Assembly (NCBI GenBank): GCA_009779925.1
Contig: WRAZ01000002.1
Span: 1-64,000, forward strand
From: Chitinivibrionia bacterium
GTDB lineage: Bacteria > Fibrobacterota > Chitinivibrionia > Chitinivibrionales > Chitinivibrionaceae
Length of the DNA stretch: 64,000 nucleotides
Direction of reading: 5' to 3'
Below are positions 5,378 through 20,517 of this stretch, one piece after another. The stretch's first letter is position 1. Each line of letters opens with the position of its first letter. The translations under genes and the position numbers were made by a program. The notes under the pieces were generated by a model. That model searched no databases and had not been told where the DNA came from. It saw only the letters and a program-made list of their open reading frames with translations.

Positions 5378-6049
5378 CTATACCTTTTTGTATTCTTCTG
5401 ATGTAAGAAAACGTTCCAATTCTTCTATTGTAATAACAAAAGAGTTTTGGCAAGTTAGTTTTTTCAGACGTTCGATTTTTGTTTCGCTTCCTGTTTGAGC
5501 GTCTTTCTGCAAATAATATTTCCCGTCGCATATAGCAAGAAATATATGCTTTTTATAGTTATTGTCTCGCGCGTGCCTCAAAAACTCCTGAATATCTGCA
5601 TATTGGTTATCTTGCGCTCCACCTGAATCTTTTGTGTATTTGTGCGAAGCGAAAAACAAATAATCTCCAACTTTCCAAGCAAAATCGATAGATTTTGTGT
5701 CTTTCGATGCTTTGTCAAGAACATTACCGTCTAATAATTTGCCGTTTACTAAATAAAGCGCTTTTTTGCCACCTTGCGGAAGTGTTGCAAAGTCTTTTAC
5801 AACTGATAGTCTTTCAATATAATTCGCCGCAAGCTTTTGATACAAATTTTGCTTAGCAGGGTCTTTGGCAAACACACAACTAAATATCGGATCTTTTTTT
5901 ATCTTTTCTAATATTTCATCAAAAGAATATCCAAACTTGTCTGCCCAACTTTGAATTTTGAACTTCATATCGTCTGTATCTAACAGAAATAAAACTTCTT
6001 TCAAGTTTTTCACAAGCTGTTTTTTATATTCGCTCTCGTAATTTACCAT
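5378..6049 (-). CDS. Putative type II restriction endonuclease
   Basis: A 223-residue soluble protein with no signal peptide. I identify it mainly by position: it begins one base after the stop of an N6-adenine DNA methyltransferase, in the same orientation. The segment SIDFAWKVGDYLFFASHKYTKDSGGAQDNQYADIQEF has a strand-rich centre with acidic and Lys residues that could form a PD-(D/E)xK-like site, and SGGAQDNQ looks like a strongly conserved core. I cannot name the restriction specificity. The alternative is an unrelated accessory protein of a solitary methylase. Confidence 0.55.
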   Translation of the reverse strand: MVNYESEYKKQLVKNLKEVLFLLDTDDMKFKIQSWADKFGYSFDEILEKIKKDPIFSCVFAKDPAKQNLYQKLAANYIERLSVVKDFATLPQGGKKALYLVNGKLLDGNVLDKASKDTKSIDFAWKVGDYLFFASHKYTKDSGGAQDNQYADIQEFLRHARDNNYKKHIFLAICDGKYYLQKDAQTGSETKIERLKKLTCQNSFVITIEELERFLTSEEYKKV

Positions 6050-6050
6050 T

Positions 6051-6995
6051 TCACGCTGCCTCCGCTATTAGTGAGCGAGCCATTGAAAAATCAAGACGTC
6101 TTCTGAATTTTCCGTCTTTTCTTGTCCCCTTAAACGGCGTAAGAAAAACATCGGCTGTATCTGTCCGAAATTTGTTGAGATTTGTGTTTAATTTTTTTAT
6201 AAGTGAATTTATATTTCTTGTTTTTATCGAAATTCTGGTTATACTTCTTGAGGAAAACCCGACTCTTTCGGGAGAAATATCTTCGCCTTTTACAAACTTT
6301 ATAGATGCTTCAACGGTGTTATCAATAGCTATTAAGCCAAGTTTGCCGCTTTTGTCGTTAAATTTTAAGTCAGAAAAATCACAACATTGCGGCAGTTTTT
6401 GTTCCAAATCATTTAAAAAACCAATAAAAAATTGCCCGTCATAAATTTTTATTGGTCTTGTTTCATTGCAAAACAAAGCAAGGCATACGGGGTGCTCGGT
6501 ATCGTCAAACATTTTTGACGGCAATAAAACATAATGCGACAATCGGTTTCTGAAAAGCCCTGAATTAAGAAAGGATGCAGGAATTATTGCGCCAACGTTT
6601 TCGCTATTTTCCAAGCATTTTGATAGAGAATATTTATATAAATCGTCATATTCCGTATTTGGATAACTCAGATTTCTTCGAGTAGCCGAATTTTTGGCAA
6701 GATACGGAGGATTTGTTATGCAAACATTGTATCCTTTTGGGAAATCAAGCAATGTGTTACGAAAAATTACGGCTTCATTTTTTGGTTCAATATCAAAAGA
6801 TGCGAAATTTTTACAAACATTCATTTTTTTCAGCATTTTTATAAGATTATTCGCTCCCGCAAACGGCTCTAATATCGTCTGATTTTGAAAATCGCAAATT
6901 TCACACCACTCTCTGAAAGCGGCATTTTCAAACGGATTATTTTGTGTAAAATATTGTCCGTTCATTCGCTTGTTCTTTGCGTCAAATTCAATCAT
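6051..6995 (-). CDS. Type II N6-adenine DNA methyltransferase
   Basis: A 314-residue Rossmann-fold DNA methylase. Motif I is ILEPFAGANNLIKML (SAM binding, about residues 41-55), an acidic motif II follows (FASFDIEPKN), and the catalytic motif IV is NVCITNPPYLAKNSATRR (NPPY, about 91-108), so the product is N6-methyladenine in the gamma-class order of M.TaqI and Eco57I relatives. The C-terminal 120 residues are the likely target-recognition part. It is one base upstream of the putative nuclease, forming a compact R-M operon whose methylase is made first, an order that protects the host. Confidence 0.85.
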   Translation of the reverse strand: MIEFDAKNKRMNGQYFTQNNPFENAAFREWCEICDFQNQTILEPFAGANNLIKMLKKMNVCKNFASFDIEPKNEAVIFRNTLLDFPKGYNVCITNPPYLAKNSATRRNLSYPNTEYDDLYKYSLSKCLENSENVGAIIPASFLNSGLFRNRLSHYVLLPSKMFDDTEHPVCLALFCNETRPIKIYDGQFFIGFLNDLEQKLPQCCDFSDLKFNDKSGKLGLIAIDNTVEASIKFVKGEDISPERVGFSSRSITRISIKTRNINSLIKKLNTNLNKFRTDTADVFLTPFKGTRKDGKFRRRLDFSMARSLIAEAA

Positions 6996-9367: not shown

Positions 9368-11170
9368 TTATCTCGCTCTCTCTTCCGAGAAAAACTTTAT
9401 CGCGGTTGTCAGCTTGAATATCCCCGCCGCAACGCCGTGGATTGTGGTTTCCATTGACATAAAGTCTTTGCGGTTGTCGAAGAATACGCCGTCCACCGTG
9501 TTGAACTTGTAGGTGCGCTCTATCGTTGGGTCAAAGGGGAAGAATATGCTGAAACGATCCCAGCTTGGTCTGTCGCCCGGTCCTTCCGAAATTGCGCCTT
9601 CGGGGAAAAATTGCGCTTGAAGTCCGAAGATTTGCGAGTTCGGCTGAGTTATTGTTCTGCCTGCAAGGCGCGGGTCTTCGGTTGCCACAAAGTTAATGCC
9701 CCAGTTGTTTTTTCCCATAAAGTAGTCGAACATATTTCTGCCGAGCTCTTCGTATCTTCTGTCGCCTGTCAGCATTTGAAATTCCAATGCGTTAGCGCCG
9801 ATTGCGATGTATGTGTAAAGACCCGCCCAAACGTATTGCGTGGGAAGTCCCCAGATATTGCCCGGTCTTCTGCCGTGAGCCATAAACGCGTCCAAATCGG
9901 CGTGCAAATCGTTTACTGCAACGGGATGCCACTCCATAACGCGCAAGTTTGCAGGCATATTTACCGATTCCCAAGCGCGCCAACCCGCGTCTCTCGCTAT
10001 GTCTTGGAAGCGCACGGACTGCTCTCTGTAGTGGTCAACGCCCGTTAATCTGTAAAGCTCCGCCGCGGCAAGAGCAAGGTTATCGTTTATCGTTTGGTCG
10101 CCGTACCACGTGTTGAGTTTGTCGTCGTAGCCCGCGGGAGCCTCCGCATCGTCCGAAATCGCCCGTCTGAAAATTAAGCGAGCGCGTTCTTCGTATTGTC
10201 TGGCGAGGTTTTCTTTGCCCGGAATATTACGGAAAATGTTCGCGCCCAAAGCCAAGCTTGCCGCGGCATATCCCATTTGCGTTGGAGAAAGCGCCGCCAA
10301 AATCGGACGGTTATGTCCGCTCAAAGTGTCGTTATGCGGCAAACGATAACCGACGTTGTGGTCAACGTAATTCGCCACCTGAACAACAAATTCGTTCGTG
10401 TCGCGCGGATCCATCGTTTTGAAAAGCCAATCCAAGCCCCATTTTGCTTCGTCTAAAATGTCGTTAAGCTCGGTGCGGCTAAAATTGAACATTGTGTCAA
10501 AAAGCGCGGGGTAAAGTTCGTAAGCGCGAAGCATAAAATAGGTCGCATAGCCGATTGTAAGCGTAAATTTAACGTAGTCGCCCGCGTCGTGCCAGCCGCC
10601 TCTCATATCTCTTCTTTTGCCTGAGCCGGCGTCGTGCCACGAGCCGTTATCGCCGCCGCGCCTGTGGAAAAGAATGCCCGCCGAGTCTTGCAAATGGCAA
10701 ACTCCGTGAGTTCTGTGTCCGTCGTATCCGCAGCGAGCCGTGCGCATCCAAAGAAGAGGTCTGCTTATAAGCCACGAATAAGGGTCGTTTGAAATCGGGA
10801 AAATCGCCGCTTCCGCACCGTCCGTTTCAAATCTGTATGTCCCCTCGTCGCGCAATGCGGTAAAATCCACAATGTAGTTGAACGGAAGAGGCATGTGTCC
10901 CGATACTCCGCTCGCCGAATTACCGAAACGACCGCGCATAACAACGCTATCCGCTTCCTCTTTTGTTATAGTCCATTCTCTGCCGCTCAGGTTTCGCTCG
11001 GACATAACCACCAATCTCTTTTGGCGGCTTGGAGTGAAGCCCAAAAAGTTGTAGCGCACATAAACTCCGCCGTCAATCGCTCTGCGGGGAGAAGTTGAGC
11101 CGCCGCGGCATCCCATAAACGCCACCGAAAACAATATCGCGCAAATTGCTATAAAGAGTAATTTTTTCAT
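9368..11170 (-). CDS. GH9 family glycoside hydrolase, lipoprotein (endoglucanase-like)
   Basis: 600 residues. The N-terminus MKKLLFIAICAILFSVAFMGC is a lipoprotein signal with Cys21 as the lipid anchor. An N-terminal Ig-like CelD_N module (to about residue 125) precedes a GH9 (alpha/alpha)6 barrel. The catalytic Asp pair is seen in GGWHDAGDYVKF and the general acid Glu in FFDNRKDFMSMETTIHG, which fits the GH9 C-terminal signature (aromatic-x-D-x4-aromatic-x3-E). The PHHR part of the other GH9 signature is not recognisable. The predicted role is hydrolysis of beta-1,4-glucan or a related polymer at the cell surface. It lies 14 bp downstream of a degenerate paralogue and is probably co-transcribed with it. 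Confidence 0.85.
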   Translation of the reverse strand: MKKLLFIAICAILFSVAFMGCRGGSTSPRRAIDGGVYVRYNFLGFTPSRQKRLVVMSERNLSGREWTITKEEADSVVMRGRFGNSASGVSGHMPLPFNYIVDFTALRDEGTYRFETDGAEAAIFPISNDPYSWLISRPLLWMRTARCGYDGHRTHGVCHLQDSAGILFHRRGGDNGSWHDAGSGKRRDMRGGWHDAGDYVKFTLTIGYATYFMLRAYELYPALFDTMFNFSRTELNDILDEAKWGLDWLFKTMDPRDTNEFVVQVANYVDHNVGYRLPHNDTLSGHNRPILAALSPTQMGYAAASLALGANIFRNIPGKENLARQYEERARLIFRRAISDDAEAPAGYDDKLNTWYGDQTINDNLALAAAELYRLTGVDHYREQSVRFQDIARDAGWRAWESVNMPANLRVMEWHPVAVNDLHADLDAFMAHGRRPGNIWGLPTQYVWAGLYTYIAIGANALEFQMLTGDRRYEELGRNMFDYFMGKNNWGINFVATEDPRLAGRTITQPNSQIFGLQAQFFPEGAISEGPGDRPSWDRFSIFFPFDPTIERTYKFNTVDGVFFDNRKDFMSMETTIHGVAAGIFKLTTAIKFFSEERAR

Positions 11171-11184
11171 TTATTCGTATCCTC

Positions 11185-12906
11185 CTAATTTCTACCAAAA
11201 AGGGTGTTTGCCAAAGTCATAAGATAGATGTTTTTCGCCGCGCCGCTCGTTCTTCCGCCCATCGAAATAAAGTCGCCGTCCAAGTCGTAAAACACCACCG
11301 CTTGAGTGTTGAACGGGAATTGCGCCGATGTGCGAAGGTCATACAAAATCCATATACTTTGGGCGGCGTGGGTCGCTCTGTCGGTCGGACCGACCGCCGT
11401 TAAGCCTTCGGGAAACAATCTTTGCTGAAGTCTGTATATCGGGTGGTTAAAATTGCGAACGCTTTCGGGAATGCTCTGAAGCGCCGTAAAACTTAAGCCC
11501 CAGTTGTTAAGCCCGTAGTTGTAGTTAAGAACGTCCAAAACAAGACTTGCGTGAGTATTGTCGCCCGACTGAACGCTGTATGCTCCCGCTCCTATCGCTA
11601 TAACAAAATAATTATAAAGCGCGTTTATGGTGTAGCCCTTGGGAAGGTTCCATATATTTTGCGCGTTTCTGCTGTTAGACAAAGTGCCGCCCAAGCTCTC
11701 AAGAATTGTTCTGCGCGCGTTTGGATGTTGCGGCAAAACCATAGATTGCGCAATTACGTTTTGGACGTCCCAGCTTATCCAGTGCGCCGCGGGAAGCGCG
11801 TCCGAAAGCGCTCTTGCTCTCGTCAAAAACCGCTCTTCGCCCGTAAGCTGATGGAGAGCCACCGCCGCCATAAGCAAATTGTCTTCGGCAGTCGGGTCGG
11901 GAAAAAGCGCCCAACCGCGTTCCAGCCATTCGGGTCTAACACCCTGAGCCTGCGCCGCGTCAAATAATCTTATCGCTTTTTCTCTGCATTGTCTTGCAAA
12001 ATTCGCGTCTATGTTTTGGAAAGTTTGCGCGCCCAAAGCAAGCGCCGCCGAAACGGAAGCCATACAAGACGAGCTCTTTATAGAAAACGCGGGTCTCAAA
12101 CCGTCTCTTCTGTCGCGATGCGGAAGGCGGACGCCGAATTCGGAGTCGTATCCGCCGACGTTTATTATGAAGTCTCTGTCGTTCGGCATAACTTTGAGCA
12201 GATATTCAAGTCCGAAGCGCGCCTCGTCCAAAATATCGACCAAAGCGCTTGGGCTGTATCTTCTTGTGAAGGTTTCGGGCGCAAGGTTGTATGCTCTCAG
12301 CAAATAAAAGGTTGTCAAAGCGATAAGCGGGGTCGATTTTGTGTAGTCGGTAGAAGCATACCAGCCGCCGAGCAAATTGTGAGCGATAAATTCATCATTT
12401 TCCGCCCAAGGGTCGCTCCTGTTGGGTCCCGTTCTGTAATAAACAAACGCCACGGAGTCGCCGAAATGCGCGGGCTCGCGGTCGAGCGTATGGACGGAGC
12501 CGCTTCTTTGAACGCGTATCCACCTCAAAGACGAGGCAATCGCTTCGCTATACGGGTCGGAAGTTATTCTGAATGTACGCGCGTTTTCTACGCCGTCAAT
12601 CGAAAGAACGAAATTCCCTTCCCGCGTTAATTCGGAAAACAGGATTTCGTGATTAAATGCAAACGCCGAATGGTCGCTTACCCCTATTAAGCTTGTTCCG
12701 ATAACTCCCTGTTTCGCCACAGAGCCGTTTTCGTCCGTAATTCTCCACGCTCTCGAGGACAAATCCTCAGACGACATCACAACCATTCTTTTTTCGGCTG
12801 ACGGAAAATATCCTGCCAAATTGGCGCGAATAAAAGTTTGCGCAGATACCAAAAGAAATGCTCCCGCACACAACCCAATAATAGCCGCTTTTGAAAATAT
12901 ACTCAC
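11185..12906 (-). CDS. GH9-like protein lacking catalytic residues
   Basis: About 573 residues from a GTG at 12906, nine bases after GAGAGGAG; the longer GTG at 12927 has no Shine-Dalgarno site. A signal peptide (SIFSKAAIIGLCAGAFLLVSAQT) precedes the same CelD_N plus GH9 layout as its downstream neighbour, with clear end-to-end similarity. At the catalytic Asp pair the neighbour has GGWHDAGDYVKF whereas this protein has GGWYASTDYTKS, losing the first Asp, and at the general acid SMETTIHG becomes SMGGRTSG, losing the Glu. It is therefore predicted to be inactive as a hydrolase. It may bind glycan or scaffold its partner (inference). Confidence 0.75.
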   Translation of the reverse strand: MSIFSKAAIIGLCAGAFLLVSAQTFIRANLAGYFPSAEKRMVVMSSEDLSSRAWRITDENGSVAKQGVIGTSLIGVSDHSAFAFNHEILFSELTREGNFVLSIDGVENARTFRITSDPYSEAIASSLRWIRVQRSGSVHTLDREPAHFGDSVAFVYYRTGPNRSDPWAENDEFIAHNLLGGWYASTDYTKSTPLIALTTFYLLRAYNLAPETFTRRYSPSALVDILDEARFGLEYLLKVMPNDRDFIINVGGYDSEFGVRLPHRDRRDGLRPAFSIKSSSCMASVSAALALGAQTFQNIDANFARQCREKAIRLFDAAQAQGVRPEWLERGWALFPDPTAEDNLLMAAVALHQLTGEERFLTRARALSDALPAAHWISWDVQNVIAQSMVLPQHPNARRTILESLGGTLSNSRNAQNIWNLPKGYTINALYNYFVIAIGAGAYSVQSGDNTHASLVLDVLNYNYGLNNWGLSFTALQSIPESVRNFNHPIYRLQQRLFPEGLTAVGPTDRATHAAQSIWILYDLRTSAQFPFNTQAVVFYDLDGDFISMGGRTSGAAKNIYLMTLANTLFGRN

Positions 12907-12988
12907 GTTTAATAACTCCTCTCGCACGAGTTTTGTCTTGTTTATGTATATAAATATAATATAAGCCGCAATAAAAAGCGCGTTTTTT

Positions 12989-13299: not shown

Positions 13300-14652
13300 T
13301 TAGTTTATCGGATTTACTATCGGGCAGGCTTTCATACACTTCCAACAATACTGACACGTTTTTCTGTTAATCGCAACAGTAAATCCGCTCTCTTTTGTCT
13401 GATACGGAAAAATACTTTTTGCAGGACAAGCAGATAAGCATTTTCGACCGACACATTTTGCGCAAAAGTTTTTTTCGCCCTCTAAAACGCCTTTTGACAG
13501 CGCCAAATAAAAATATTTTTGCGCTTTGGCGTATTCTTTAAAAAGCAAACAGGTTAAAAGCAATCTATAAATTCCGTTAACGACCACAGGTTTATACATT
13601 TCGTTTTTTTGCTCAAGAGAAACGCAGGTCGTTTTGTCCAAAAAGTCGTTGATTATCCTTATTTCTTCCGTGATATTCATTTCCATTTCCCAAAAATCCA
13701 TTCCGTCTAAAATCGGAAAGAACGAGGCGCGCCTGAATTCCCGAGCGGTAAGCGGGCGGGCGGCGACTGTTTTCGGATGTTCGAGCGGAAAATTCATTTC
13801 TCCCGCGACAAGCATTGCGCCGACGTTATATTCAAAACCGTTATGCGCCGTATCCGCAACGCCGCAGCCGATATTTGTCGCCAAATTGCAATCGGGAACA
13901 ACAAACAGCCCGTTATTTATTAAAGCCGAAAATTTTAACTGCAAGTCCCAGGTGTTGTTTCTGCCCGATAAAATTATCTCCATTTGGTCGGTAAGGATTT
14001 TTATTCTGGCGTTTTTTATGTATTCGTCATAATCGTGAGAATTGTCGTCGATTTCGCGTTTTGTTTTGTATTTTTCCAATTGCGACATCGATTTATCGTG
14101 CTTAATCCATGCTCTTCTCCAAGTCGCCCAACCCCAAATTCCCGTAATATCTTCCGAAAAATCCGTGATTCTCTTAAAAGAATAAGTATTTGCCGACAGG
14201 TTTTTTGCTGTTTCATTGGTGCCGTTTATAAGAAAAACGCTTTCTTCGTCCTTGTATTTTGTTAGAATTTCCGAGCAGAATCGAAAAAAACTCGGCGCGG
14301 GAAGGCAATCGTCTTCAAGAATTATTCCCATTTCTTCGTTCTCGAAAAACCAATCTATCGCCGCTTCTATTCCGAATCTTGTGCCGAGATTTTTTTCTTG
14401 AAAATTAGTGAATACTTCGCAGTCCCAATCGACGTTTTCCACGACCCATTTGCGCAGATATTCGACATTTTCTTTCTCGGAGGCGACGGTCGCCCGCCAA
14501 CCGTCCGAAAAAACGTATAATTTTTTAGGTCTTGATCTTCTTATTGCCGAAAAAACTTTTTTTGTCGTTTCGATTTTGCAAAACGGCGTAAATAATATCG
14601 GCATTTTTTCGTAGTCGTTATTATCGACAATATTATTTTTAACTAACCTCAT
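13300..14652 (-). CDS. Glycosyltransferase with C-terminal two-cluster ferredoxin-like tail (paralogue 4)
   Basis: 450 residues. Residues 18 to about 240 form a GT-A type nucleotide-diphospho-sugar transferase (HlpA-like): MPILFTPFCKIET start, the acidic DxD-like motif GIILEDDCLPAPSFF, and GIWGWATWRRAW. Residues 395-450 hold eight Cys in ferredoxin order: C397-x2-C400-x4-C405-x3-C409-P and C433-x2-C436-x2-C439-x3-C443-P, as expected for two [4Fe-4S] clusters. The start overlaps the stop of the paralogue upstream by four bases (ATGA). The acceptor, sugar donor and redox role are unknown. The join is in one continuous frame and recurs in two paralogues, so it is not an assembly artefact of one gene. 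Confidence 0.7.
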   Translation of the reverse strand: MRLVKNNIVDNNDYEKMPILFTPFCKIETTKKVFSAIRRSRPKKLYVFSDGWRATVASEKENVEYLRKWVVENVDWDCEVFTNFQEKNLGTRFGIEAAIDWFFENEEMGIILEDDCLPAPSFFRFCSEILTKYKDEESVFLINGTNETAKNLSANTYSFKRITDFSEDITGIWGWATWRRAWIKHDKSMSQLEKYKTKREIDDNSHDYDEYIKNARIKILTDQMEIILSGRNNTWDLQLKFSALINNGLFVVPDCNLATNIGCGVADTAHNGFEYNVGAMLVAGEMNFPLEHPKTVAARPLTAREFRRASFFPILDGMDFWEMEMNITEEIRIINDFLDKTTCVSLEQKNEMYKPVVVNGIYRLLLTCLLFKEYAKAQKYFYLALSKGVLEGEKNFCAKCVGRKCLSACPAKSIFPYQTKESGFTVAINRKTCQYCWKCMKACPIVNPIN

Positions 14653-15899
14653 TTTCCCTCCGAATTGCGAAGATTTTTTTCGCCTTTTAATACTCCGTCC
14701 GCTTCCGCCAAAGAAATGTATTTTTGCGCCTTAGCGTGTTCGCCAGAATTTACGGCATAATTTATCAATTCACGTAAACTGTCGCCTAAAAATTCCTCAT
14801 ACATTTCGATTTTTTGTTCTTTTGGAAGTTTACTCCGCACTAAAAAATTATGAACGGTCAAAATTCTGTCGGTTATTGTCGCCTCTATTTCCCAAAATTC
14901 TCTTGTCGAAATATTCGGCACAAAAGCTGCGCGGATATATTCTTTTGCGCTAAGTGCCTGCGCCGCAACAACTTGCGGATGTTTTATCGGAAATGAAATT
15001 TCCCCGACTGCTAAATTTGTTCCAACGCTATACTTAAACGTCTTGTGAGCGGACTCCGAACTGCTACCCCCGATATTGCTGACCAAATTGCAGTCCGGGA
15101 CAACAAAAAGTCCGTCGTTTATCAAGGTCGAAAATCTCAACTGAATGTCCCAAGTGTTGTTTTTTCCGTCCAAGATATATTCCATTTGTTCACAGATGTT
15201 TTTTAGTCGAGTGTTTCGCAAATTTTCTTCGTAATTATTTTGTAGGGGCGGGGTTTGCCCGCCCAATTCGCCACTTGGTTGGTTTTTAGGGCGGGCAAAC
15301 CCCGCCCCTACGGCATCACGATATTCTTGCAGTCGCGACATTGATTTATCGTGTTTTTTCCACGCTCTTCGCCAAGTCGCCCAACCCCAAATTCCGGCAA
15401 TATCCTCGGAAAAGTCCGTGATTTTCTTGAAAGAATAAGTATTTGCCGATAAATCTTTTGCTGTTTCGTTGGTGCCGTTTATAAGAAAAACTTTTTCGTC
15501 GTCCTTGTATTTAGTAAGAATTTCCGAGCAAAATCTAAAGAAACTCGGAGCCGGCAAACAATCGTCTTCAAGAATTATTCCCATTTCTTCATTCGCAAAA
15601 AACCAATCAATCGCCGTTTCAATTCCAAATCTTGTGCCGAGGTTTTTTTCTTGGAAATTTGTGAATACCTCGCAGTCCCAATCTACATTTTCCACAACCC
15701 ATTTGCGCAGATATTCGACATTTTCTTTCTCGGAGGCTTCTCTTGCCCCGTCGGAAAAGACATATAATTTCTTGGGTTTCGATTTTTTTATAGCATTAAA
15801 AACCTTTGTTGCGGTTTCTATTTTGCAAAAAGGAGTAAATAGAATCGGCATTCTAACGTAGTCGTTATTATCGTAAAAGTTGCTTTTGCTCAATCTCAT
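14649..15899 (-). CDS. Glycosyltransferase paralogue without ferredoxin tail (paralogue 3)
   Basis: 416 residues with the same GT-A domain as its neighbours (IILEDDCLPAPSFF, GIWGWATWRRAW). It ends at GEKNLRNSEGK, exactly where the siblings continue GEKNFCAKC into the Cys-rich tail, so the redox module is missing. About 24 residues around position 200 (AVGAGFARPKNQ to GGQTPPLQ) are encoded by a 70-bp GC-rich palindromic element inserted without breaking the frame; siblings have a short unrelated loop there. It lies 29 bp downstream of paralogue 2 and overlaps paralogue 4 by ATGA. Confidence 0.75.
   Translation of the reverse strand: MRLSKSNFYDNNDYVRMPILFTPFCKIETATKVFNAIKKSKPKKLYVFSDGAREASEKENVEYLRKWVVENVDWDCEVFTNFQEKNLGTRFGIETAIDWFFANEEMGIILEDDCLPAPSFFRFCSEILTKYKDDEKVFLINGTNETAKDLSANTYSFKKITDFSEDIAGIWGWATWRRAWKKHDKSMSRLQEYRDAVGAGFARPKNQPSGELGGQTPPLQNNYEENLRNTRLKNICEQMEYILDGKNNTWDIQLRFSTLINDGLFVVPDCNLVSNIGGSSSESAHKTFKYSVGTNLAVGEISFPIKHPQVVAAQALSAKEYIRAAFVPNISTREFWEIEATITDRILTVHNFLVRSKLPKEQKIEMYEEFLGDSLRELINYAVNSGEHAKAQKYISLAEADGVLKGEKNLRNSEGK
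15242..15311. repeat. GC-rich palindromic element inserted in frame in a glycosyltransferase gene
   Basis: Perfect 23-bp inverted repeats (15242-15264 and 15289-15311) beginning GTAGGGGCGGGG and ending CCCCGCCCCTAC flank a 24-bp spacer. The arms are about 75 % G+C in a 40 % G+C gene. The element sits inside the 14649-15899 coding sequence and keeps it open. Comparable compact palindromes that enter coding sequences are known as Rickettsia palindromic elements; relation to those is not implied. No second copy was seen in the window. Confidence 0.85.
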
Positions 15900-15928
15900 A
15901 AGATCCTCCTAATGTTCTGACATTTCAA

Positions 15929-17260
15929 TTATTCCGGATTTACAATCCAACATTTTTTAACGCAATTAAAACAATAAATGCAAGTTTTTGAGTCGATTAC
16001 AACAGCATTTTGCCCGTCTTGTGCCTTAATCAAAGATATGCTTTTTGTCGGACAAACAGCAAGACATCCTTTAGTTGTACACTTTGCGCAAAAGTTTTTT
16101 TTGCCGACAAAAGCGGACTTTGTCAATGCCAAATAAAGATACTTTTGCGCTTTGTAATATTCTTTGTATCTACACGCCCAATCTATAAGTTCAAAGAGGT
16201 TGTTCTTTTCAAGATCTTCATACTTTTCAACGATTTTCGGATCGCCCAAAAAACCGTTTGGTCCCAAAAAATTATATACCGCAATCTGTTTATTAAGAGT
16301 GGCGACCTCTAAATCTTCATATTTTTCTTCAAAACATTTTGGAATAGCACTGCGTACATATTCTTCCGCTGTAAGTACGCGAGACGCTAAACTTTGAGGG
16401 TGTTGTAAAGGAAACAAAATTTCTCCGGTCGGAAGCGTTCCCTCCAAATAATATTCGCTACTCGTATGCGTAAAGCCCGACGCACAGCCGATATTTGTAA
16501 CTAAATTGCAATCGGGAAGAACAAAAAGTCCGTCGTTTAACTGCACAGAAAATTTCAATAGATAACTCCAACTATTAACTTTTCCGCTCAAAATCCCTTC
16601 CACTAAAGTAAGAATAAGTAGCATTTGCGTATGTTTTATGTATTCATTAAAATCATAACTGCTTTTATATTCATCACATATTTTTCCGTATTTTTCAAAC
16701 TGCGCGGCGCTTTTATCGTGTTTTTTCCATGCTCTTTTCCAAGTTGCCCAGCCCCACATTTCCGAAGCGCCTACGTTATCCTTAAAATAATACGAGTTCG
16801 CCGACAATGCCTTTGCGTTTTCGTTATGACCTTTTACGATAAACACACTTTCGTCGTCTTTGTATTTGAGCAGAATTTCACTGCAAAATCTGAAAAATCC
16901 GGGCGCGGGCAAAGTATCGTCTTCGAGGATTATCCCCATTTCTTCGTTCTCAAAAAACCAATCGATAGCCGTTTCTATCGCCTGTTTGCATCCGAGATTT
17001 TTGTCGCTGAATTTTGTGTGGACTTCGCAATCCCAGTCAATGCTTTCTAAAACTGCTTTTCGTAAACTTTCGACATTTTCTTTCTCGCCGACTTTGTTTT
17101 CCCGCCAACCGTCCGATGAAATATACAATTTTTGGGGTTTGGATTTTTTTATCGCGTTAAAAACTTTCATAGTAGTTTCGGTTTTAGCGAAAATGCAAAA
17201 TAAAATCGGCATTCTTTCATATTCGCTGTTTTCAAAAAAGTTGTTTTTAACTAATCTCAT
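15929..17260 (-). CDS. Glycosyltransferase with C-terminal ferredoxin-like tail (paralogue 2)
   Basis: 443 residues from the ATG at 17260, which has GGAGGAGGGAG nine bases upstream; a longer reading to 17332 would overlap the previous gene and lacks a site. The GT-A domain has MPILFCIFAKTET, IILEDDTLPAPGFF and MWGWATWKRAWKKHD. The Cys tail is C391-x2-C394-x4-C399-x3-C403-P and C427-x2-C430-x2-C433-x3-C437; the Pro after the last Cys is replaced by Trp, all eight Cys being kept. It is closest in sequence to paralogue 1 (EDDTLPA and DNVGxSEMWGWATW shared). Confidence 0.7.
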   Translation of the reverse strand: MRLVKNNFFENSEYERMPILFCIFAKTETTMKVFNAIKKSKPQKLYISSDGWRENKVGEKENVESLRKAVLESIDWDCEVHTKFSDKNLGCKQAIETAIDWFFENEEMGIILEDDTLPAPGFFRFCSEILLKYKDDESVFIVKGHNENAKALSANSYYFKDNVGASEMWGWATWKRAWKKHDKSAAQFEKYGKICDEYKSSYDFNEYIKHTQMLLILTLVEGILSGKVNSWSYLLKFSVQLNDGLFVLPDCNLVTNIGCASGFTHTSSEYYLEGTLPTGEILFPLQHPQSLASRVLTAEEYVRSAIPKCFEEKYEDLEVATLNKQIAVYNFLGPNGFLGDPKIVEKYEDLEKNNLFELIDWACRYKEYYKAQKYLYLALTKSAFVGKKNFCAKCTTKGCLAVCPTKSISLIKAQDGQNAVVIDSKTCIYCFNCVKKCWIVNPE

Positions 17261-17297
17261 TTTCCACTCCCTCCTCCTCCCTGATAATACAAAGAAT

Positions 17298-18632
17298 TTA
17301 TCTTTCTCTAACAAACGGACAATGTTTAACACAATTCCAACAATTAGCGCAAGTTTTCGGATCGATTTTAACTGCTTTTTCTCGGTTTATTAACCTAACT
17401 AAAGATATGCTTTTTGTCGGACAAACAGACAAACAATCTCTGCTTTGACACTTTGAGCAAAAGTTTTTTTCATCGACAAGTGCAAGTTTTGTTAAAGCCA
17501 AATAAAGATACTTTTGCGCTTTGTGATAATCATTAAAGCAACACGCTTGTTTTATCAATAAACATAAACGATCTTTTTCAAAATCTTTAAATTTTTCTGC
17601 GATTTTAGGCTCGTTAAAAAGAGCGTTTTGCTTAAGAAAATTCTGAACTGCAAAAAAATCGTTTAATGCATATATCTCTAAATCTTCAAATTCTTCTTGA
17701 AAATCTTTTGGTTTGGCGGTACGTACATATTCTCTTGCCGTAAGTGGACGCGAAGACAAATTTTCCGGGTGTCGCAAAGGAAACAACATCTCACCTATCG
17801 GAAGCGTTCCTTCCAAATAATATTCGGTTCCTGTGTGAGCTGCTCCCTGCGCGGCACAACCGATATTCGATACCAAATTACAGTCGGGAAGAATGAAAAA
17901 ACCATTATTCACTGCTACAGAAAATTTCAACAAATAACTCCAACTGTTTATCTTACCATTTAAAATCGCTTTTACTTGTGCTAAAATAAATAACATTCTC
18001 GTGTAATTTATATATTCGTCAAAATCCTGTCCATCTTCGTAGTTATCGCACATTTTTGCATATTCTTCAAACTGCGCGGCGGTTTTGTCATGTTTTTCCC
18101 ATGCTCTTCTCCATGTTGCCCAACCCCACATTTCGGACATTCCTACATTATCCTTAAAATAATATGAGTTTGCAGACAATTTTTTTGCATGTTCATTGTG
18201 TCCTTTCACAATCCATAGTTTTTCGTCGTCTTTGTATTTGATAAGCATTTCACTGCAAAATCTGAAAAAACCGTGCGCGGGCAATGTGTCATCTTCAAGA
18301 ATTATCCCCATTTCTTCGTTCTCAAAAAACCAATCGACAGCCGATTCTATCGCCTGTTTGCAACCGAGATTTTTATCGCTGAATTTTGTAAATACTTCGC
18401 AATCCCAGTCAATGCTTTCTAAAACTGCTTTTCGTAAACTTTCGACATTTTCTTTCTCGCCGACTTTGTTTTCCCGCCAACCGTCCGATGAAATATACAA
18501 TTTTTTGGGTTTGGATTTTTTTATCGCGTTAAAAACTTTCATTGTAGTTTCGGTTTTAGAGAAAATACAAAATAAAATCGGCATTTTTTCGTAGTCGTTA
18601 TTGTCGTAAAAATTGTTTTTGTTTAATCTCAT
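17298..18632 (-). CDS. Glycosyltransferase with C-terminal ferredoxin-like tail (paralogue 1)
   Basis: 444 residues. The GT-A domain has MPILFCIFSKTET, IILEDDTLPAHGFF and MWGWATWRRAWEKHD. The tail carries C392-x2-C395-x4-C400-x3-C404-P and C428-x2-C431-x2-C434-x3-C438-P. The start codon lies two bases after the ruvB stop, so this is the first array gene and is likely co-transcribed with ruvA-ruvB. No signal peptide or membrane segment is evident, so the protein is cytosolic. A role in building a surface glycan under redox control is conceivable but is only inference. Confidence 0.7.
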   Translation of the reverse strand: MRLNKNNFYDNNDYEKMPILFCIFSKTETTMKVFNAIKKSKPKKLYISSDGWRENKVGEKENVESLRKAVLESIDWDCEVFTKFSDKNLGCKQAIESAVDWFFENEEMGIILEDDTLPAHGFFRFCSEMLIKYKDDEKLWIVKGHNEHAKKLSANSYYFKDNVGMSEMWGWATWRRAWEKHDKTAAQFEEYAKMCDNYEDGQDFDEYINYTRMLFILAQVKAILNGKINSWSYLLKFSVAVNNGFFILPDCNLVSNIGCAAQGAAHTGTEYYLEGTLPIGEMLFPLRHPENLSSRPLTAREYVRTAKPKDFQEEFEDLEIYALNDFFAVQNFLKQNALFNEPKIAEKFKDFEKDRLCLLIKQACCFNDYHKAQKYLYLALTKLALVDEKNFCSKCQSRDCLSVCPTKSISLVRLINREKAVKIDPKTCANCWNCVKHCPFVRER

Positions 18633-18634
18633 TG

Positions 18635-19687
18635 TTATTCGCCTTCAAAAATACTTGTTTGCAAACTATCTTTTGGGCTTTTTTTGTATTTTGGCTTAAT
18701 TCCGAGCATTTTGTACGTTTTGTCGGTGATTTCCCGTCCTTGCGGCGTGCGCTTCAAAAATCCGCATTGAATTAAATACGGCTCATAAACGTCTTCTATG
18801 GTATCGCTTTCTTCGCCTACCACTACGGCAATATTTTTTATGCCGACCGGACCGCCGTTGTAATGTTCGGCAATAGTTGTAAGTATCGCTCTGTCCATTT
18901 CGTCAAGTCCGATGTCGTCTATTCCGAGCATTTTGCAGGTTTGCGATACAATATCCGTCGTAATAGTCCCGTCTCCGCGAACATCGGCGACATCCCGCAC
19001 CCGACGAAGCAGGCGGTTTGCCACTCTCGGAGTGCCGCGCGAACGTTTTCCGAGTTCCATTGCGGCTTGCGGTTCGCAGGTGATGTTCAAAAGTTTTGCC
19101 GAACGTAAAACCACCTTTTGCATTTCTTCGTCGGTGTAATATTTCATTTGACCTACATAGCCGAAGCGCGCAAGCATTGGCGCAGTAATAAGCCCCGCAC
19201 GGGTTGTTGCGCCTACAAGCGTAAATTTTTTGAGAGGCAATCTTATAGATTTCGCCGCAGGACCTTCACCCGTCATAATATCGAAAACAAAATCCTCGAT
19301 TGCAGGATAAAGCGCCTCTTCAACAACGCGATTAAGTCTGTGAACTTCGTCTATAAAAAAGATTTCTTTTTCATCGAGCCCTGTCAAATTTCCTGCCAAA
19401 TCGCCTTTTTTTTCGAGAACAGGACCCGATGTTGTAGTGATTTGAACGCCCATTTCGTTAGCCAAAATTCGCGCAAGAGTGGTTTTCCCAAGCCCCGGAG
19501 GTCCCGAAAACAGGATGTGGTCAATCGGCTCCCCGCGTTTTTTCGCCGCCGCAACAAAAATAGACAAATTCGCTTTTAATTGCTCCTGCCCGATAAAGTC
19601 GGAAAAGGTCTGCGGACGAAGCGTTCTGTCCAACTCCGTGTCGTCATTATTCGCCGACGGAGTGATTATCCTTGTTATTTCGTGCAT
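18635..19687 (-). CDS. ruvB: Holliday junction branch migration ATPase RuvB
   Basis: 350 residues from the ATG at 19687; an upstream GTG at 19732 would overlap the preceding gene by 34 bases. LRPQTFSDFIGQEQLKANL, Walker A GPPGLGKTTLARILANEMG, Walker B IFFIDEVHRLN, the sensor-1 region LVGATTRAGLITAPMLARFG (Thr-Arg of sensor 1) and the winged-helix part EPYLIQCGFLKRTPQGREIT are all present. RuvB is the hexameric AAA+ motor that drives branch migration with RuvA. It is separated from ruvA by a 70-residue gene; ruvC is not in the window. Confidence 0.97.
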   Translation of the reverse strand: MHEITRIITPSANNDDTELDRTLRPQTFSDFIGQEQLKANLSIFVAAAKKRGEPIDHILFSGPPGLGKTTLARILANEMGVQITTTSGPVLEKKGDLAGNLTGLDEKEIFFIDEVHRLNRVVEEALYPAIEDFVFDIMTGEGPAAKSIRLPLKKFTLVGATTRAGLITAPMLARFGYVGQMKYYTDEEMQKVVLRSAKLLNITCEPQAAMELGKRSRGTPRVANRLLRRVRDVADVRGDGTITTDIVSQTCKMLGIDDIGLDEMDRAILTTIAEHYNGGPVGIKNIAVVVGEESDTIEDVYEPYLIQCGFLKRTPQGREITDKTYKMLGIKPKYKKSPKDSLQTSIFEGE

Positions 19688-19698
19688 AAATTGCCCGC

Positions 19699-19911
19699 TC
19701 AAAGCTTCCTGTTTCGCATTGAATTTAAACACAAAACTCTCGGCTCGTCGCCATAAATCATAGATACCGCCGTCATTACCTTGTTTTCAAGGTCGCGATC
19801 AGAGTCATCGAAAGCGGCTAATTTTTTCCATTCCTCAAGCGTTGGCTCTTTTAGCCCGCGTTCTTTTAATTCTCTTCTTATGGCGTCAATAAAAGCCACG
19901 TTTTTTGTCAT
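19699..19911 (-). CDS. Small conserved-looking protein between ruvA and ruvB
   Basis: 70 residues, charged and mostly helical (AFIDAIRRELKERGLKEPTLEEWKKLAAFDDSDRDLENKVMTAVSMIYGD). It starts three bases after the ruvA stop and ends 11 bases before the ruvB start, so it is embedded in the operon and very probably translated. I do not recognise a family. It has no membrane segment or Cys motif. Confidence 0.6.
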   Translation of the reverse strand: MTKNVAFIDAIRRELKERGLKEPTLEEWKKLAAFDDSDRDLENKVMTAVSMIYGDEPRVLCLNSMRNRKL

Positions 19912-19914
19912 TTT

Positions 19915-20517
19915 CTATATCTCCCTCAAAGCAATTCTTATCCATTCGTGAGCAGGAATGTTTTCGTCCAAAGTTTCATCTAAGTTAATCAAGACATTCC
20001 GCACCTGATTTTCCGTGTAGCCAAGCGCAATAAGTCCTGCAAAAGCGTCTTCGCGCGGAGTTTTCGTAATCGGCTGCGATTTCTCTGCTTTAGCTCTGAT
20101 TGCCACTTTGGATATTCCCGTTAATTTTCCTTTTAATTCCAATATTATTCTCTGCGCCGTTTTGGGTCCAATTCCGCTGACCGTCTTAAACGGCGAAATA
20201 TTTTCGTTTTCTACGGCATTTGCAATTTCTTCAGCTTTCAGTCCCGACAAAATGCTCAAGCCGACCTTTGGTCCTATTCCGCTGACATCGATGAGTTTCA
20301 GAAAAACGTCCCGCTCTTCTTTGGAAATAAACCCGTAAAGCGCTTGCGAATTTTCGCTGATGTGATAATATGCGAAAAGAAAAACGTCCTCGCCGACACT
20401 CGGCAAGGCAAGCGATGTATTAAACGAAATTCCCAGTTTATAACCCACGCCGCCCACGTCTATAACGGCTGTTCCCGCATCACTGTGAAATAATTTTCCG
20501 TGAAAAAACTCAAACAT
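19915..20517 (-). CDS. ruvA: Holliday junction recognition protein RuvA
   Basis: 200 residues, normal length. The N-terminal OB-fold domain begins MFEFFHGKLFHSDAGTAVIDVGGVGYKLGIS; two helix-hairpin-helix motifs follow (LIDVSGIGPKVGLSIL and FKTVSGIGPKTAQRIILELKGKL), and the C-terminal three-helix RuvB-binding domain ends the protein (DAFAGLIALGYTENQV). The protein clamps four-way junctions and loads RuvB. It heads the ruvA-small gene-ruvB-glycosyltransferase run, 79 bp downstream of mtaB. Confidence 0.96.
   Translation of the reverse strand: MFEFFHGKLFHSDAGTAVIDVGGVGYKLGISFNTSLALPSVGEDVFLFAYYHISENSQALYGFISKEERDVFLKLIDVSGIGPKVGLSILSGLKAEEIANAVENENISPFKTVSGIGPKTAQRIILELKGKLTGISKVAIRAKAEKSQPITKTPREDAFAGLIALGYTENQVRNVLINLDETLDENIPAHEWIRIALREI

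Follow-up and report, generated by a model that had tools for sequence, protein, structure and literature searches.

Iron–sulphur clusters are known in many enzymes, and FkbM methyltransferases are usual partners of glycan transferases. Searches of the available literature and of domain libraries returned no record of a sugar-nucleotide glycosyltransferase carrying a ferredoxin-type domain, in line with the initial annotation, which had taken such a protein to be undescribed. The described proteins closest to the ones analysed here are related to either half of them. Residues ∼16–298 belong to a large family found across many phyla, whose members go under the annotations 'hemolytic protein HlpA-like', 'nucleotide-diphospho-sugar transferase' and, it seems in error, 'methyltransferase FkbM'. 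The C-terminal tail resembles subunits such as HycB3 of the hydrogen-dependent CO2 reductase (PDB ID: 7qv7).

Organization of the gene cluster

The window analysed here, a stretch of 64,000 nucleotides from contig WRAZ01000002.1, belongs to the genome of a Chitinivibrionia bacterium (G000; 2.5 Mb, 88 contigs), in which tailed or paralogous copies are confined to the set present in this window. Four genes, w4 to w1, are located on the minus strand directly downstream of ruvB (18635..19732, minus strand), which itself lies outside of the fusion; the gap between ruvB and w4 is 2 nt, and w4, w3, w2 and w1 then follow one another nearly without gaps. The product of w4 (17298..18632; 444 aa) consists of a GT-A glycosyltransferase, a helical linker and a ferredoxin-like tail with eight cysteines. 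The same architecture is found in w3 (15929..17260; 443 aa counted from the ATG at 17260) and in w1 (13300..14652; 450 aa), the ATG of which overlaps the stop codon of w2. The remaining gene, w2 (14649..15899; 416 aa), encodes the GT-A core and the linker, its Fe–S tail having been lost, and is preceded by AGGAGG. In a mechanical list of open reading frames w3 starts at GTG 17332; this start is less likely than the ATG at 17260, because the latter is preceded by the stretch GGAGGAGGAGG.

The four products are paralogous along their whole length, with core identities of 57–80%, and all four contain the EDD(C/T)LPA and GWATW motifs. The initial annotation had placed four consecutive GT-A paralogues with these motifs at positions 13300–18632, which proved exact. 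It had also described a repeated, intact fusion expanded to four copies; the fusion stands, with the tail being present in three of the four copies and missing from w2.

Upstream of w4 are a mtaB-like gene, ruvA (19915..20517, minus strand) and ruvB; w1 is followed downstream by a short gene and then by a pair of genes of the GH9 cellulase family. A surface-glycan locus is not found among these neighbours in the window. A scan for promoters and terminators gave results near chance level. The GH9 genes, which stand in tandem at window positions 9368–12927, encode glycoside hydrolases with CelD_N domains. Elsewhere in the window (5378–6995), a gene for an Eco57I-type methylase adjoins one for a Tsp45I-like restriction enzyme (sub-threshold match), and the two are likely to form a type II restriction-modification pair.

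A palindromic element lies within w2 (15242..15311, minus strand) and is read in frame as VGAGFARP...LGGQTPPL. It is composed of two perfect 23-nt arms, GTAGGGGCGGGGTTTGCCCGCCC, separated by a loop of 24 nt, and keeps the frame. The arm GTAGGGGCGGGGTTTGCCCGCCC has 49 matches in G000 and none in the comparison genome G004 (see below). The 25 arm loci that were checked, including repeats of one site, are mostly located within an open frame and usually translate as VGAG(F/S)ARP...LGGQTPPL. In this respect it resembles the palindromic elements that Rickettsia carries in frame.

The catalytic core

For the core, 172 relatives were confirmed among genome contigs, of which the best 80 were kept. The window proteins show homology to this HlpA-like family over about 280 aa, with an invariant W, EDD and the GW of GWATW, and the 40-sequence alignment contains 21 invariant columns. 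Pfam gave nothing significant for the catalytic half of the window copies; PF03071 (GNT-I) is absent from them and only weakly matched in 3 of 40 relatives (best E-value 0.004). A search of PDB sequences with the 40-member family profile found nothing.

The AlphaFold2 model, based on 40 sequences, has a pLDDT of 82, exceeding 90 over most of its GT-A part, and a pTM of 0.80. The top match in Foldseek was GnT-I (1fo8; E-value 4e-10), followed by POMGnT1 (5ggi) and MGAT2 (5vcs), and the 12 best matches were all to GnT-I, POMGnT1 or MGAT2, which supports the proposed identity of the core as a GT-A glycosyltransferase. Matches in a viral structure library were to ordinary glycosyltransferases. The modelled core fold is GnT-I-like, and by sequence the proteins fall outside GT13. 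In the model the linker forms three helices (residues 315–335, 342–365 and 369–381). The order of elements in the Fe–S part (helices 393–396 and 399–403, strands 409–413 and 419–423, helix 429–436) fits a ferredoxin, at a pLDDT of only about 45–68; a model of the tail alone was poor (pLDDT 56) and gave no significant structural match.

The cysteine-rich tail

The C-termini of w1, w3 and w4 contain two four-cysteine motifs, C-x2-C-x4-C-x3-CP and C-x2-C-x2-C-x3-C, 23 residues apart. In w2, which ends in ...GEKNLRNSEGK, the stop codon falls just where the first of these motifs would be expected. When the proteins were searched singly, Fer4_7 (PF12838) was recognized above the Pfam cut-off in w4 (30.3 bits, E-value 6e-7) and below it in w1 and w3 (E-values of about 8e-5 and 9e-5), whereas the search in the genome frame placed it above the cut-off in all three tailed copies. 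The dicluster [4Fe-4S]-type domain so defined spans positions 17313..17459 in w4 (34.1 bits in the genome-frame search), 15950..16090 in w3 and 13321..13464 in w1 (all on the minus strand).

Among the eight tailed proteins of the two genomes, all 64 tail cysteines (eight in each) are conserved, and at each of the eight positions TGT and TGC both occur. Complete conservation with both cysteine codons in use rules out chance and shows the cysteines to be under selection. Ka is lower than Ks in the core, linker and tail of tailed pairs, in the tail without exception, a comparison that serves as a sign test and gives no rate, several Ks values being saturated. The proline following the last cysteine is absent in several tailed copies. 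The linker has diverged more rapidly than the core, with identities of 25–63% versus 54–80%.

The solved proteins nearest to the tail profile are HycB3 (7qv7) and nitrite oxidoreductase B (7b04), each with an E-value of 2e-7, with 4ydd, 2ivf and DMSO-reductase-type beta subunits also among the nearest matches. In 7qv7, 7b04 and the DMSO-reductase-type beta subunits, the first motif has the same x4 spacing as in the tail. No close relative of the tail was found among the other ferredoxins of the two genomes, the next match being an unrelated frame of 709 aa (E-value 2.5e-7). We infer with high confidence from the sequences that the tail is a genuine two-[4Fe-4S]-cluster module; the eight-cysteine, dicluster-type tail recognized earlier on three copies is upheld by the Fer4_7 matches and the invariant cysteines.

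Tailed copies in a second genome of the genus

Within the genus, the sole further genome examined is a Chitinivibrionia MAG (G004), which seems to be of termite-gut origin. It encodes five further distinct tailed proteins, along with tail-less ones; a stretch repeated on two of its contigs was counted once. Only one of the five tailed copies adjoins ruvB, and the other four are found elsewhere in unrelated contexts. The copy beside ruvB (L017:498-3113, minus strand) is a single frame of 872 aa, in which a helical N-terminus, the glycosyltransferase and the Fe–S tail are followed by an FkbM methyltransferase (PF05050). A PyrK-like gene adjoins one G004 copy, g4d, in convergent orientation. For g4c, the 632-aa frame had suggested an extra N-terminal domain; this was rejected, the extra part being an antisense reading of the divergent neighbour. 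A 584-aa frame (L020:1471-3222, plus strand) combines a distant core-family domain with a C-terminal part which, by eye, resembles a second glycosyltransferase.

The tail-less g4f, the nearest tail-less relative in G004, lies among GT1, GT2 and Stealth genes, and the glycan loci in which plasmid-borne tail-less homologues sit also contain neuB, polysaccharide ABC transporter and FkbM genes. None of the tailed G004 copies inspected is located in a glycan locus. Co-occurrence of the tailed copies with surface-polymer genes, proposed as a check in the initial annotation, was not observed; of the copies inspected in the two genomes, only the tail-less g4f lies in a glycan locus. Nor does a conserved redox or glycan partner gene travel with the tailed copies, which occur in unrelated contexts, and the suggestion of an undescribed system is not supported. 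The position behind ruvAB, to which importance had been attached, may be old for one lineage and is not general; with only one of five G004 copies adjoining ruvB, we give it no functional weight, and the link is probably incidental.

Distribution

Among 168 genomes of the phylum, the core family is present in 22 and the linker-plus-tail region only in this genus; elsewhere in these genomes, matches to the linker-plus-tail profile are essentially limited to the cysteine motifs. Nor was the region found in two other phyla (396 and 395 genomes), where only the best candidates per genome were scored and the matches were again essentially to the cysteine motifs. A pattern scan covered 84,980 species; its four highest-ranking loci belong to G004, and all other loci aligned no further than about residue 320. 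No tailed copies were present among viral contigs, phages or plasmids. Within the genomes and collections covered, the join is confined to this genus, and the core is widespread and tail-less elsewhere. The possibility of the tail occurring on other types of glycosyltransferase was considered and rejected, as the profile matches outside of the genus are almost all to cysteine motifs only. Two examples with a readable motif, one of them in G000, are proteins of the ferredoxin type in which the motif sits close to the N-terminus; neither is a glycosyltransferase. A tail on a quite different glycosyltransferase may exist in an unsampled phylum.

Evolutionary history

The core tree unites the tailed proteins and w2 in a single clade (100/100) on a long stem, with the tail-less g4f and L100 as its sisters (98/95). 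The monophyly of the tailed clade next to a tail-less enzyme from a glycan locus shows that a single fusion took place, followed by expansion by duplication. Duplication appears to predate the split of the two species, because w3/w4 and w1/w2 place differently among the G004 copies, and to have been followed by further copying; the deepest forks are weak. The nesting of w2 with w1 (99/97) indicates that w2 lost its tail secondarily, while its core remained under constraint (Ka 0.17, Ks 1.07 versus w1). It may be a gene on its way to decay. The DNA sequences of w3 and w4 (window positions 15932–18632) are 99% identical around residues 30–60 and 64–76% identical from residue 240 on. Gene conversion probably keeps their N-terminal halves alike, while the C-terminal halves and tails diverge.

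Possible role of the tail

The reading we favour, at a probability of about 0.4, is that of a cytosolic glycan transferase with a 2[4Fe-4S] module giving redox-dependent activity or partnering, both cluster binding and mechanism being predicted. An HlpA-like cytosolic GT-A enzyme would move a sugar from a nucleotide donor to a precursor of a cell-surface glycan or glycoprotein. In the ancestor of the genus, one copy would have been extended by the linker of three helices and, at its C-terminus, by a 2[4Fe-4S] ferredoxin domain of DmsB/HycB/NarH type; duplication of the fused gene would have come afterwards. The Fe–S domain would bind two clusters and, itself non-catalytic, would couple activity or partner binding to the redox or oxygen state. 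The electron-accepting step in surface glycan formation suggested in the initial annotation is one of several conceivable mechanisms. That a glycan is the substrate of the tailed enzymes is inferred here with moderate confidence; redox gating as the purpose of the tail is put forward only weakly. The persistence of the w2 core without a tail implies that the tail is not needed for folding of the core and fits an accessory or regulatory role. Since the tail is dispensable in w2, no redox gene is linked and the linker diverges fast, we tentatively prefer a redox-responsive regulatory or partner-binding module to a catalytic electron-transfer step. More speculatively, two clusters in the enzyme's own C-terminal domain might switch its activity or choice of partner, which would make it the first redox- or oxygen-sensing glycosyltransferase, in multiple copies in one genus.

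Alternatively, the ferredoxin fold and its clusters could serve mainly as a stable module for interaction or oligomerisation, by which the transferase is positioned at a partner or acceptor without redox chemistry. The helical linker preceding the tail and its faster divergence, as expected of a partner-specific surface, are consistent with such docking; yet a structural role would permit but not need so strict a retention of the eight ligands, and the w2 core persists without them, so that we consider this somewhat unlikely. Less likely still, the tail might supply electrons to a partner, such as a radical SAM enzyme or a reductase, that works on the sugar or acceptor handled by the transferase, thereby coupling reduction to transfer. 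The two-cluster spacing is indeed that of DmsB/HycB-type electron-transfer subunits and both motifs are retained in every tailed copy, but no redox enzyme is consistently linked in the window or to the inspected sister copies (the PyrK-like gene beside g4d being convergent), and the sole fused partner, FkbM, is not a redox enzyme. It is quite improbable that the tail is vestigial, or that it binds zinc or some other metal instead of [4Fe-4S] clusters: although w2 manages without it, the final proline is missing in several copies and w1 and w3 score below the Pfam cut-off as single proteins, the 64 of 64 cysteines with synonymous switching, Ka below Ks, the dicluster spacing and best matches exclusively to Fe–S proteins speak against this. 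An artefact joining a glycosyltransferase to a separate ferredoxin gene by a missed stop, frameshift or misassembly, conceivable in a MAG assembly, has a negligible chance of being correct and was rejected on the strength of the second genome, whose five additional distinct copies confirm the fusion as real: the same join recurs in eight distinct, divergent genes of two independently assembled genomes, free of internal stops.

The combination, not encountered outside this genus in the searches, suggests a possible link between redox state and the coating of cell components with sugars in these anaerobes, whose genus is related to the Chitinivibrionia of termite guts. Should the clusters prove real, the tailed enzyme offers a small soluble protein for asking whether redox state or oxygen can control glycan assembly, and natural controls are at hand in the tail-less paralogue of the same operon (w2), the tail-less sister enzyme g4f and the methyltransferase-joined version.

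Comparison with known systems

The window core aligns with HlpA-like family members at roughly 32–43% identity, including EDD, GWA(T/S)W and later conserved N and G residues; however, none of the 36 homologues examined outside of the genus has the linker or the cysteine tail. Complete homologues there are about 295–370 aa long, one reaching 439 aa through an N-terminal extension. With GT13 enzymes (GnT-I, POMGnT1) and the related MGAT2, the window enzymes, as modelled, share the GT-A fold, a GnT-I-like topology and the EDD metal motif, but identities are only 11–14%, TM-scores about 0.3–0.46 and the window copies lie below the Pfam cut-off; they are furthermore bacterial and soluble, with extra C-terminal domains. 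The tail displays the same succession of C-x2-C-x4-C-x3-CP and C-x2-C-x2-C-x3-C as the dicluster electron-transfer subunits of the DmsB/HycB/NarH type, from which it differs in possessing only two cluster motifs and in being fused to a glycosyltransferase, a catalytic oxidoreductase partner not having been found. The fusion of glycosyltransferase, Fe–S domain and FkbM in G004 recalls the FkbM and glycosyltransferase genes of glycan loci, and FkbM genes flank tail-less homologues elsewhere, but in the 872-aa fusion a ferredoxin domain stands between the two enzymes. The domain architecture of the tailed proteins is new, but their enzyme family is known, and they do not amount to a new kind of system.
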